DNA of 43,963 nucleotides, taken from positions 1 through 43,963 of the forward strand of contig JACYMC010000048.1 in the NCBI GenBank assembly GCA_015272195.1. The letters run 5' to 3'. This document shows, one piece after another, positions 6,408-43,795 of this stretch. The DNA is from Candidatus Sericytochromatia bacterium. GTDB lineage: Bacteria; Cyanobacteriota; Sericytochromatia; UBA7694. A model generated the notes under the pieces. That model worked only from the letters and a program-made list of their open reading frames with translations, ran no database searches and was not told where the DNA came from. The first letter of the stretch is position 1, and each line of letters opens with the position of its first letter. A program made the translations under genes and the position numbers.

Positions 6408-7913
6408 ATGACCGTTTGTATCAGCGCCCAGGATTTTCACACGTATTACAAGCCCTCCCGCTGTCAGCGGCGGGTGCACCTGATTCACCATCCGCCACCG
6501 GACAGTGATCCGGTGGCCGTGGCGCATTATTATGCCCATGCGGCTGAAGCCGATCGGCACGTGGAACGCTATTATTTTAAACGCCTGAGCCGCCCCCAGG
6601 ATCTCAGCCAGCTGCCCGAAAAAGAGCGTCTGCAGGCTTCGATGGATGCCGTGCTGCGTCAGGAGCCCGTGATTTATAAGCCTCTGTTCAGCTACACCTG
6701 GAAGTACAAGGGCCGTCGCCACACCCTAAAGGCAGAACCCGACTTTCTGATCTGGGGCGAGGACGGCTACAGCATGCGCCATTGCCGCATGGCCAAAAAA
6801 ATTTCCCGCGACAATCACCCGGATATTTTCTGGATCAGCCAGTTTCACGGCTGGGTGTATCAGCAAATTTTCGGTGAGCCCCCTGCCGCGCTGGAAGTAG
6901 GCAACGCCACCGGCGAAATCAGCACCCTGCCCTTTCTGGAAGAAACCCGCCTGACAGACATGCTCTGGCAGTTGGTGACCTGGCGCCAGTCGCGCAAAAT
7001 GCCCTATCACCCCGTCAGCTGGACCAAGTGCCAGAGTTGCCACTTTCGCGATTTTTGCTGGCAGCTGGCCGAACAGAATGAAGATATTTCGCTGGTACCC
7101 AATCTGGAGTCGTCTCTGATTCTGGACCTGCGAGACCAGGGCATTACAACCGTTTCGCAGCTGTGCGAAAAACACACCGTCGACAGCCTGGCCCGCTATG
7201 AATGGACCGAAAGCCAGACCCCGCGCAAAATTGGCGCCAAAAAAGCCCAGAATATGCTGCACATGGCCGAGTCCATTCTGACCCAGAAGCCAATTTTAAC
7301 CCAGCGGCCCCGCCTGCCTGAGAGCAAAAACTGGCTGATGTTTGACGTGGAGGCGGTGCCGGCCCGGCCGGGCCAGCCCGAAAAGGTCTACCTCTGGGGG
7401 CTCTATCTGATGGGCGAGCAACACCAGAACCTGCAGCTGATCAGCCAGACCCTGAATCGCCAGGCCGACCGCGACAACTGGTTTGCCTTTCTGGAGCGCA
7501 TGCGCGAGCTGTTTGACACCTACGGTGATCTGCCCTTGATCCACTGGGGTAACTTTGAGTCGGCCTGTATCAAGCTCTACATTAAGCGCTTTGGCGACCG
7601 GCGCGGCGTCGCTCGCCGCATTCAGCGTAATCTGCTCGACTTTTTTGAGGTCCTCAAAGCTTCGGTGGTGGTGCCCATACCCAGTTACAGCCTCAAGGTG
7701 CTCGAAAAATACGTCGGTTTTGTGCGACCGGATGAAGACACTGGCGGTTACTGGTCGGTGGTCAATTATCTGAAGGCGGCCTCCACCAAAAATCAGGCCC
7801 GCCGTGAAGAGATTATGCAGCAGCTATTGGCTTATAACTGTGCGGATTTAGAAGCTATGTGGGCCGTGATGTGCTGGTTTCAGGATTTATTGCATCAAAA
7901 TCAGGTGGCCTGA
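6408..7913 (+). CDS. TM0106-family RecB-like nuclease with C-terminal RNase H-like (YprB-type) domain
   Basis: N-terminal Cys 'PSRCQRRVHL', 'CQSCHFRDFC' (Cx2Cx5C), 'EPDFLI'; C-terminal 'FDVEAVP...HWGNFESACIKLY...YNCADLEAMW'. Confidence 0.8.
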   Translation: MTVCISAQDFHTYYKPSRCQRRVHLIHHPPPDSDPVAVAHYYAHAAEADRHVERYYFKRLSRPQDLSQLPEKERLQASMDAVLRQEPVIYKPLFSYTWKYKGRRHTLKAEPDFLIWGEDGYSMRHCRMAKKISRDNHPDIFWISQFHGWVYQQIFGEPPAALEVGNATGEISTLPFLEETRLTDMLWQLVTWRQSRKMPYHPVSWTKCQSCHFRDFCWQLAEQNEDISLVPNLESSLILDLRDQGITTVSQLCEKHTVDSLARYEWTESQTPRKIGAKKAQNMLHMAESILTQKPILTQRPRLPESKNWLMFDVEAVPARPGQPEKVYLWGLYLMGEQHQNLQLISQTLNRQADRDNWFAFLERMRELFDTYGDLPLIHWGNFESACIKLYIKRFGDRRGVARRIQRNLLDFFEVLKASVVVPIPSYSLKVLEKYVGFVRPDEDTGGYWSVVNYLKAASTKNQARREEIMQQLLAYNCADLEAMWAVMCWFQDLLHQNQVA

Positions 7914-7970
7914 AGTCTCTGATACGCTGAATGGGGTACAATACAGCAGTTCAGTCTGAGGAGATTCCCT

Positions 7971-8789
7971 ATGAAGTCATCATTGCGTCTGACCGCCACA
8001 CTTACATCCACCAGCCTTCTGCTTGCGCTTCTGCTGAGCTGTACGGCTACCCAGGTGCCGACAGGCACCGTGCCGGATGATCCCAGCGCCTCCCCCAGCC
8101 CGGATGCTTCCGCTTTACCGGTCAATCCGTCACCAACAACAGCGCCGGACACCAGTACAATGCCTACAGCAACGCCTGAACCCAGTATTACCCCCTTTCC
8201 AAGCGGGCAGGCCAGCCCCTCTGCCACGCCCCTGCCGACCCCCACGCCAATTTACAGCGGCAGTGGTGACAATCTGATCGATCTGAATTTCCGGGCCCGT
8301 GTGATCACCGAAGGCCGTGAGGTTTTGCCGGTGGTCAATACCACCTTCAGAGCCGATCCTTACGATCTGCGCGCCCTGCGCCAGCAGGTGGCCGCCCGAA
8401 ATAATGCCGGCCCCATGCCTGTGGCTCCTTCTCAGTTTGAAAGCAAATACCAGATCGAAGAAAAGGTCTGTACCAGCAGTGGTTGTACCACCCAGGCTGG
8501 TGTAGACCTGGAAGCCTATCAGGAAGCTCTCAACCGCTACCGCAACAGCATTCTGCCTGACTGGGAAGCCCGTGCTTATGCTGGCCTGGTGGAAGCGCGC
8601 AGCGAAGCGGCCAACGGCCGTCAGAGCCTGAGCTTCAGCACCGATCAGAATGGCGAAGCCACCCTGCGCTTGCCGGCCGGAAACTGGTATTTTAACGGGC
8701 GTTACAGCACCAGCGGTGCGGTGGTGATCTGGGAGTCTGTACCTTTTGAGGTGCTGAGCACCACCCGATCGATTGAACTGGTGCGCTGA
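7971..8789 (+). CDS. Predicted lipoprotein with Pro/Ser/Thr-rich linker
   Basis: Signal peptide with possible lipobox 'LLLSC'; linker 'SPSPDASALPVNPSPTTAPDTSTMPTATPEPS'. Confidence 0.6.
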   Translation: MKSSLRLTATLTSTSLLLALLLSCTATQVPTGTVPDDPSASPSPDASALPVNPSPTTAPDTSTMPTATPEPSITPFPSGQASPSATPLPTPTPIYSGSGDNLIDLNFRARVITEGREVLPVVNTTFRADPYDLRALRQQVAARNNAGPMPVAPSQFESKYQIEEKVCTSSGCTTQAGVDLEAYQEALNRYRNSILPDWEARAYAGLVEARSEAANGRQSLSFSTDQNGEATLRLPAGNWYFNGRYSTSGAVVIWESVPFEVLSTTRSIELVR

Positions 8790-40560: not shown

Positions 40561-41820
40561 GTGTCGAAACGAGACTACTACGAAGTCCTGGGCTTAGAGC
40601 GGGGTGCTTCTGACAGTGAGATCAAGCGCGCCTATCGCAACCTGGCCCGCAAGTATCACCCTGATATCAACTCAGCACCGGATGCCGAGGCCACTTTTAA
40701 AGAAGTGTCTGAAGCCTACGATGTGCTGAGTGATCCCCAGCGCCGTGCAGGCTATGACCGTTTTGGTCATGCCGGCATGGGAGGCCAGGGCTTTGGCGGT
40801 GGTGGCGGTTTCGATGGTTTTGGCTTTGGCGGCGGTGGCCTGGGCGATATCTTCGAAGCTTTCTTCGGAGGGGCCCGGGACCCGTTCCAGGGCCAGCGTG
40901 CAGGCGGACGCAGCCGCGCCGAGCGCGGGGCCGACCTGCGCATGGATCTTAAAATCAGTTTTCGTGACGCCATTTTTGGGGCCGATCGCGAAGTCGAGCT
41001 GCAGCATCTGGCTGTCTGCGAAAGCTGCAACGGCGAAGGTAAAGAAGCCGGTACAGAAATGGTCAGTTGTCCGACCTGCCGTGGCAGCGGTCAGATCCAG
41101 CAACACCAGCGCACGGCTTTTGGTACCTTCACCCATGTCACCACCTGCCCCAAGTGTAACGGCCAGGGTCGCTACCCCGAAAAACCCTGTCAGACCTGCA
41201 AAGGTCAGGGCCGGGTCAACAAAAAGAAAACCCTTAAAGTGCCCATTCCTCCGGGTGCAGATACAGGTGTGCGCCTCTGTCTGAACGGGCAGGGCGATGC
41301 CGGTGGCCGGGGTGGGCCACCTGGCGATTTATACCTCGTGCTGCATGTCGAGCCGGATCCTGAAGGCATCTTTGAACGCCGGGATCACGATATCTATACC
41401 GAAGTATCGATTGGTTATGCCCAGGCTGCTCTGGGAGATAAGATTGACGTGCCCACCCTTGAAGGCAGCACCCGCTTTGAGATCCCTGCAGGCACCCAGC
41501 CTGGTACGGTCTTTAAACTCAAAAATAAGGGCGTGCCTTACCTCAACGCGGCGGCCACCCGGGGGGATCTCTACTTTAAGATCAACGTGGCCGTGCCCAC
41601 CGATGTGAACCAGGAGCAGCGTCAGCTTTTGCAGAGCCTGTATGAGCTGGAGCGCGGCGATGGCAGTTCTCAGACAGCCAGCCAGGGTTTTTCATTCACT
41701 GAAGGGGGTGGCCTGGCCGAAGAAGCGACCACGGCCAGCAGCGCCAGCAAGAAAAAAGGCGGTTTCTTTGATATTCTCAAAGAAACCTGGAAGTCACATC
41801 ATCACGGCAAAGATAAGTAA
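40561..41820 (+). CDS. dnaJ: Chaperone DnaJ
   Basis: J domain 'DYYEVLGLERGASDSEIKRAYRNLARKYHPD'; four CxxCxGxG motifs; GTG start. Confidence 0.97.
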   Translation: MSKRDYYEVLGLERGASDSEIKRAYRNLARKYHPDINSAPDAEATFKEVSEAYDVLSDPQRRAGYDRFGHAGMGGQGFGGGGGFDGFGFGGGGLGDIFEAFFGGARDPFQGQRAGGRSRAERGADLRMDLKISFRDAIFGADREVELQHLAVCESCNGEGKEAGTEMVSCPTCRGSGQIQQHQRTAFGTFTHVTTCPKCNGQGRYPEKPCQTCKGQGRVNKKKTLKVPIPPGADTGVRLCLNGQGDAGGRGGPPGDLYLVLHVEPDPEGIFERRDHDIYTEVSIGYAQAALGDKIDVPTLEGSTRFEIPAGTQPGTVFKLKNKGVPYLNAAATRGDLYFKINVAVPTDVNQEQRQLLQSLYELERGDGSSQTASQGFSFTEGGGLAEEATTASSASKKKGGFFDILKETWKSHHHGKDK

Positions 41821-41823
41821 GGC

Positions 41824-42557
41824 TCAGGGGCTGTGACACAGCCTGGGCTGACACTGTTTGGCCTCCAGATAGAGCTCCTGCTGACAGATAAAGCGTCGCA
41901 CGCCAGCGGGCAGCTGCTTGAAGCCATCTCTACAGTTTTCTGGCTGACTGAGTGTTTTGCGGAGCGCTGAAGAACTGATGGCTGGCAGATCGCCCGTCAG
42001 TCAGATGACTTGTCCGTGCTATGTCAGCTGCTCGGTCTGCGTGGTGCTGACGGTCTGATAACCGGGTCTGTCAATCACCACAACATGACGGCTGTCTCCT
42101 GCTTTGGGGAGCTTTTGATAGGCCACAAGTTTATTAAATGAATCCGTGCCCATCAATTGAAAGTAACGGGTGTTTTCAGCATGTTGTGAGGCGATCCAGT
42201 GCAGTAAGCTGCCCATGGGATCCTGTGCATCTGCCTGCCAGATGTTCTGCAGGGTTCTGGCGGGAGGCAAAGCAATAAAGGGCAGATCTTTTTGCCAGGC
42301 ACTGACCATGTTGTAGCGCAGGGCAAATGGCGTTGCTTCCGGCTTATGCCCCGGACGGTAATTGGGCAGAAGATAAATCTGCTTCAGCCGGAGCTGGCCA
42401 TAAGCCAGCTCTAGCAGGGCCTGGTGGCCCAGATGCGGGGGATCAAAAGTACCCAAATGCCGATGCGCTCTGCTGCAGTGGCCTGCAGCGGCCAGATCAG
42501 CAGCAGCCAGAGGCTGCAGCTTAAGAGATAAGCCGCGATGTTTTGAAGGACTGTCAT
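41824..42557 (-). pseudogene. NadD-like nucleotidyltransferase with N-terminal signal peptide; one frameshift and two in-frame stops
   Basis: ATG at 42557 reads [34 protein letters not shown] then shifts frame to LGTFDPPHLGH...; TAG 42019-42021 and TGA 42001-42003 precede in-frame LTGDLPAISSSALR...LPAGVRRFICQQELYLE. Confidence 0.8.
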
Positions 42558-43795
42558 CAGCAGCGTTCAATAATGGTGGCAATGGCCTGACCGCCACCAA
42601 TACACAGCGTGATCAGGGCTGTACGCAGGTTCTTTTGTTCAAGGGCGTCCAGGGCTGTGCTCAGCAGTATGGCACCAGTGGCCCCGAGGGGGTGACCCAG
42701 GGCAATGGCGCCGCCGTAGACATTGACGCGCGCAGGGTCCAGATCCAGGGCCTGAATGGTTTGCAGGGGCACCACCGCAAAGGCTTCGTTGATTTCCCAG
42801 AGGTCAATATCTCCGACCTGCAGTTGTGCTTGTTTTAAAGCTTTGCGGGCTGCTTCAGCCGGCCCGGTCAGCATGATCAGCGGTTCAGAGCCGTGGGTGG
42901 CCATGGCCCGGATGCGGGCCCGCGGCTTCAGCTGATGTTGCTGCACGTAGTCTGCTGATGCCAGCAGCACGGCGGCGGCTCCGTCGACAATACCGCTGGC
43001 ATTGCCAGCTGTGTGCAGGTGCTGAATCTGACCGGCTTCCGGGTAACGTGCCAGAGCGATCTGGTCAAGGGTTTCGCCATGTGGGCCCACCGGGGTGGCA
43101 CCCATATCGGCAAAGGCGGGCTTGAGTGTGCTCAGGCCTTCGAGGTTTGTTTCCGGGCGCAGGTAGCTTTCATTATCCAGCAAAACGGCCCCGCTTTTGG
43201 GATTCTTGACCACAAACAGACTGCGCTGCAGCGCCCCTTTTTCAAGGGCGGTTGCGGCCTTTTGCTGAGAGCCCAGGGCAAAACGATCCAAATCTTCGCG
43301 GGTAAAACCATAGAGTGAGGCAATCAGATCGGCTGAAATACCCTGGGGCACCTGGGGCGTATGCTGACGCAGGGCCAGGTGATGCCCATCAATGCCCCCC
43401 CCGTCGGAGCCCAGCGGACAGCGGCTCATGCTTTCGACCCCGCCGCCGATCACCAGATCCTGATAACCCGATAACACGGCCATGGCGGCAAAATTGACTG
43501 CCTGCAGGCCTGAACCACAAAAACGGTTCAGGGTCACACCCGTGACCTGCTGGGGCCAGCCTGCGCTCAACACCGCGTTGCGGGCCAGATTGGCCCCCTG
43601 TTCACCGGCCTGGGAGACACAGCCCAGGATCACGTCATCCACGCTTTCGGCGGGCTGCCCGGATTTGTGTACCAGATGGTTCAGGGTCTGGCCCATCAGG
43701 GCCTGGGGATGCAGGCCTGAAAGGGCGCCCTGATCTTTTTTGCCGCGGGCGCGCGGGCTGCGCACGGCCTCCAGAATATATGCATTGCGTTGCAT
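42557..43795 (-). CDS. Acetyl-CoA C-acetyltransferase (thiolase)
   Basis: '[19 protein letters not shown]', 'NEAFA', '[15 protein letters not shown]', '[13 protein letters not shown]'. Confidence 0.95.

Follow-up and report, generated by a model that had tools for sequence, protein, structure and literature searches.

NadD is the textbook cytosolic enzyme of NAD synthesis, and is taken here to be the nicotinate-nucleotide adenylyltransferase represented by TIGR00482 and PF01467 and by structures 1k4k and 1kam. Residues H19, H45, R46 and D109 are needed for NadD catalysis, and nadD is an essential gene in E. coli (PMC1249556). In E. coli NadD, H45 and W117 form stacking contacts with the nicotinate ring, Y118 makes a bond to the nicotinate carboxylate, and a double change of Y84 and Y118 shifts the NaMN/NMN preference toward NMN (PMC8035330).

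The window analysed (the whole stretch of 43,963 nucleotides of contig JACYMC010000048.1, from a Candidatus Sericytochromatia bacterium) holds on its minus strand, at 42557-41824, what is most probably a gene for an exported NadD-like nucleotidyltransferase that was inactivated recently. The original prediction, made from the letters, had called this a decayed, exported NadD-type gene extending beyond an open reading frame that ends at 42019. Its layout was borne out, and its account of the frame break and its family assignment were revised.

Layout and coding evidence of the broken locus

The broken gene starts with an ATG at 42557 that overlaps the thiolase stop (TGATG) and continues in three pieces (Table 1). 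Frame A encodes a hydrophobic leader and comes to a stop 48 codons from its start. The core, in frame B, carries GTFDPPHLGH (HxGH), HKP, GTDSF, VIDRPGYQ (with the R of VIDRPG) and EQLT. Past the in-frame TAG and TGA, frame B still reads LTGDLPAISSSALRK...LPAGVRRFICQQELYLE, as far as a TGA at 41826-41824, with the motifs ISSSALRK (S-S-x-x-x-R) and LPxxVxxxIxxxxLY. The start codon, the signal peptide, both stops and the family C-terminal motifs beyond them in the same frame had all been predicted, and were confirmed by direct reading. The gap between the thiolase gene and dnaJ is filled exactly by the broken gene (window 41818-41826 and 42557-42560).

Table 1. Features of the broken locus and its neighbours (window coordinates)
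Feature	Position	Strand	Evidence or remark
Thiolase, intact, acetyl-CoA C-acetyltransferase type	42557..43795	-	NF006090 532 bits, above cut-off; upstream neighbour
Signal-peptide piece, frame A	42456..42557	-	Hydropathy; codon log-odds 0.23
Frame break between IGI and GTFDP	42444..42458	-	Net 4 nt short compared with the family
Nucleotidyltransferase core, frame B	42022..42462	-	PF01467 E 1.2e-11; codon log-odds 0.32
In-frame TAG	42019..42021	-	Direct reading
In-frame TGA	42001..42003	-	Direct reading
C-terminal piece past the stops, frame B	41824..42000	-	Motifs; codon log-odds 0.23; weak NCBIfam NadD matches at the right profile positions
dnaJ, convergent neighbour	40561..41820	+	Stop 3 nt from the end of the broken gene

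Codon bias supported each of the three pieces as coding, in a log-odds model trained on 20 other long open reading frames of the window (true-frame 5th percentile 0.14; wrong-frame 95th percentile -0.12). PF01467 matched the core with 45.4 bits (cut-off 21) and the whole locus with 50.5 bits, and the core was 40% identical to a protein of a sister genus (genome G001; E 2e-33). Searched alone, the C-terminal piece gave weak similarity (E 0.03), and no sequence similarity was found for the signal-peptide piece; both pieces are supported by position, codon bias and motifs. The best 13-residue hydropathy of the leader was 2.14, compared with 2.05-2.78 in exported relatives and at most 1.64 in cytosolic NadD-type open reading frames. 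The n-region of the leader has no K or R, which is unusual for a signal peptide.

Between G-[IV] and G-T-F-D-P, every aligned relative, whether canonical or exported, has two residues, whereas the window has 2 nt there; the shortfall at the frame break is therefore a net 4 nt. The break itself was correctly predicted; the single missing nucleotide proposed for it was not upheld.

Inactivation and its alternatives

The change of frame falls at the first Rossmann strand and leaves signal peptide and enzyme in different frames, and the two in-frame stops cut off the S-S-x-x-x-R motif. Under standard decoding, the present sequence would give no product both exported and complete. Loss of the gene would be tolerable, because it appears to be accessory, being absent from 16 of the 18 sampled genomes of the class.

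It is quite unlikely that the lesions are sequencing or assembly errors and that the organism has an intact gene, encoding a working exported NadD-like protein. The assembly is fragmented (4.17 Mb in 273 contigs, 91% complete), the locus lies 1.4 kb from a contig end, and the C-terminal motifs are still recognisable, as this explanation would have it; but it needs three independent errors, including a net loss of 4 nt, in some 450 nt, whereas the thiolase gene, between the locus and the contig end, and the adjoining dnaJ are clean full-length genes, and the other neighbours are also uninterrupted. A real, recent pseudogene is favoured over error because three lesions fall within about 450 nt, with coding bias on either side of each, and the flanking genes are uninterrupted. 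The search for close intact homologues yielded a single one, that of G001, with 37% identity over the aligned stretch. The original prediction had named, as evidence that would count against it, orthologues that start within frame A and naturally end before the TAG; the G001 homologue is no such case, since a single frame, preceded by a signal peptide, runs through both motifs.

Expression of the pieces in altered form, either as a truncated cytosolic protein from a TTG at 42600 or through programmed frameshifting plus stop read-through, is highly improbable: frame B is indeed open from 42600 to 42019, but the resulting 193-aa product, ending at the TAG and being what an annotation would show, lacks both the signal peptide and the S-S-x-x-x-R motif, a motif that all 53 aligned sequences have, with small substitutions at most, and the family offers no precedent for recoding, its aligned relatives being read in a single frame.

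Relatives and the exported clade

The G001 homologue (L008 1288-3558) is intact and 756 aa long; its likely start codon is a TTG (L008:1438) preceded by AAAGGA. It reads MKTRLRNPAFFRAALLPLIFCLFLGLSRPAQA and then AHIGYYFGTFDP, with a classical signal peptide ending in PAQA followed directly by the NadD-like domain and then by a tail of about 450 aa. No family could be assigned to the tail (L008 2143-3555), and no relative of it was found in the 18 genomes of the class; a match to uridine phosphorylase was at chance level (E 2.3), and a single-sequence fold model of it was useless (pLDDT 33.5). G001, of another genus in the same family, was the only one of the 18 genomes sampled in the class with a clear homologue. 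The distribution is patchy, since G004, a second genome from the genus of G001, had no such match. Across 388 genomes of the phylum, three other matches at or below 1e-18 scored like ordinary NadD.

Both G001 and the host also carry a canonical NadD. Apart from the broken locus, PF01467 matched five times in the host genome; the three matches above the cut-off are a CoaD-like protein (L001), an RfaE-like protein (L003) and an intact 216-aa NadD beside hisS (L002), the last being the second nadD that the original prediction had suggested looking for. A recent duplication of the host's own nadD was rejected by the AU test. A mobile, phage or plasmid origin was also rejected, the best matches there being ordinary nadD (25-30% identity), and PADLOC gave no match. 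Thiolase orthologues in five relatives were 66-74% identical, and a conserved thiolase-NadD operon was rejected: none of the five had the gene downstream, and the G001 copy has other neighbours.

Exported NadD-like proteins, stand-alone or fused, occurred in about 5-6% of the sampled Bdellovibrionota genomes. The first member (L037, 720 aa) came from a Bdellovibrionaceae MAG in a scan of named genomes. Encoded at 6426-8588, it has a signal peptide, its N-terminal part weakly resembles IucA/IucC, and its NadD-like domain is C-terminal; assignment to IucA/IucC, which are siderophore synthetases, was rejected at just below the cut-off (24.4 compared with 25). Related genomes also encode this IucA/IucC-like part with no NadD-like domain attached. 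Searches of 141 and then 370 genomes around L037 added about 20 strong-scoring members, most of them secreted multidomain proteins (Bdellovibrionota members: L037, L145/L170, L158/L172, L173-L183, L186, L188, L190, L191 and L201). Three members (L186, L190 and L191) are stand-alone and share the window gene's plan of signal peptide plus NadD-like domain.

The domains joined to the NadD-like domain varied. A conserved N-terminal domain without an assigned family, VDLWNAHHRLVAY, precedes it in L145 (1504-2883), L158 (a 697-aa open reading frame), L173-L183 and L188, and the C-terminal regions of L158 and L188 have sub-threshold similarity to Fam20C or actin-fragmin kinase. The secreted L201 (a 796-aa open reading frame, minus strand) has about 570 N-terminal residues without a family before its NadD-like domain. 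Motif-based proposals of a SelO-like N-terminal part in L201 and a ParB-like one in L145/L173 were rejected, neither having a Pfam match. At E 1e-33, no member of the clade was found in 399 genomes sampled on the Pseudomonadota side and 396 on the Acidobacteriota side, which is weak evidence of absence.

A signal-peptide-like N-terminus was called, by hydropathy and eye, in 21 of the 23 aligned rows, the window included; the N-terminus of L184 was not seen, and L189 has no signal peptide. It is from these predicted N-termini that the group takes the name exported. The oddity of a signal peptide on a NadD-type enzyme, which the original prediction had pointed out, is not peculiar to the window copy, intact exported homologues being at hand.

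In maximum-likelihood trees of the 23 exported-group rows and 31 canonical NadDs, that of E. coli included, the exported group formed one branch apart from canonical NadD (support 99/97; 100/99 without long branches). Within it the window and G001 sequences were sisters (97/86; 98/93). Origin from the class's own nadD was rejected (p-AU 0.005).

Residues were compared by sequence alignment, in E. coli numbering, between the 23 exported and 30 canonical sequences. H16, H19, K46, G107, D109, R134, S180 and S181 were kept in 23/23 exported sequences, and R185 nearly always. Conversely, W117 was present in 0/23 exported and 30/30 canonical sequences (Y in the window), and G9 in 1/23 and 30/30. The S83-Y84-T85 (SYT) motif was absent from the exported group, and H45 was kept in 12/23 rows, window and G001 among them. 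Among the 22 rows other than the window, the first G of GGTFDP was replaced in 21 and kept in L190; in the window, this position falls in the frame break. By these alignments the clade has kept the catalytic residues and lost those of the nicotinate pocket.

With TIGR00482, the truncated window core scored 54.4 bits and the intact G001 protein 94.5 bits (cut-off 112.45), and both were also below the cut-offs of the other NCBIfam NadD models. A model of the L170 region (pLDDT 85) had the NadD fold by Foldseek. For the predicted NadD-type enzyme, NadD-like is the better term because the nicotinate-recognition residues are lost and the tree position is separate.

Possible function and comparison with NadD

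The intact proteins may be adenylyl (nucleotidyl) transferases that act outside the cytoplasm by the mechanism of the HIGH superfamily. HxGH and D109 would hold the metal and a nucleoside triphosphate, from which the nucleotide would pass to an acceptor phosphate, presumably of a molecule other than nicotinate mononucleotide. The source of the triphosphate is the main difficulty. The scarcity of ATP outside the cytoplasm speaks against an ordinary ATP-using enzyme at that site, except where the enzyme works inside a host or prey; prey would be a possible source in predatory bacteria, and for the window organism this is speculation.

Tentatively, and at somewhat less than even likelihood, the secreted clade, with NadD catalytic machinery and a changed acceptor pocket and often fused to secreted domains, modifies an extracellular, periplasmic or prey/host molecule and does not serve NAD synthesis. 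That the family is a true periplasmic NaMN/NMN adenylyltransferase, making NAD or a precursor from exogenous mononucleotide and ATP, is unlikely. Its best profile and fold matches are NadD and the catalytic residues are kept, with H45 in 12/23 rows, but W117 and SYT, on the pyridine-binding side of E. coli NadD (PMC8035330), are lost in all 23, every NCBIfam NadD cut-off is missed, and the hosts examined keep a canonical NadD.

This clade of mostly exported NadD-like nucleotidyltransferases is apparently undescribed, no description having been found in the open-access literature searched. Signal peptides, intact catalytic residues and the loss of the pocket, together on one well-supported branch, suggest that a second activity exists outside the cytoplasm, which would span Bdellovibrionota and non-photosynthetic relatives of cyanobacteria. 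Automated naming could mislabel the clade's proteins as NadD. As a probably dead gene the window copy is of modest interest, and the clade is the part worth following.

The closest relative of the window gene is the G001 protein, which likewise has its signal peptide directly before the NadD-like domain and shares the motifs LPNYxPxHKPxAxxF, QDP and GTDSFNKxVxYxKLP. It differs in being intact, in its extra C-terminal region of about 450 aa and in its gene neighbours. The exported proteins of Bdellovibrionota resemble the window gene in the signal peptide, in the residues lost and kept and in belonging to one tree group, with F/S-GTFDPxHxGH in most; unlike it, most are fused to other domains. 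With NadD the clade has in common the fold, GTFDPxHxGH, K/R46, D109, R134, S-S-x-x-x-R and the C-terminal LY. It differs from NadD in its signal peptide, in the first G of GGTFDP, replaced in the relatives (by F or S for the most part), in the lack of the SYT motif and of W117, in scores below every NCBIfam NadD cut-off, and in its separate branch.
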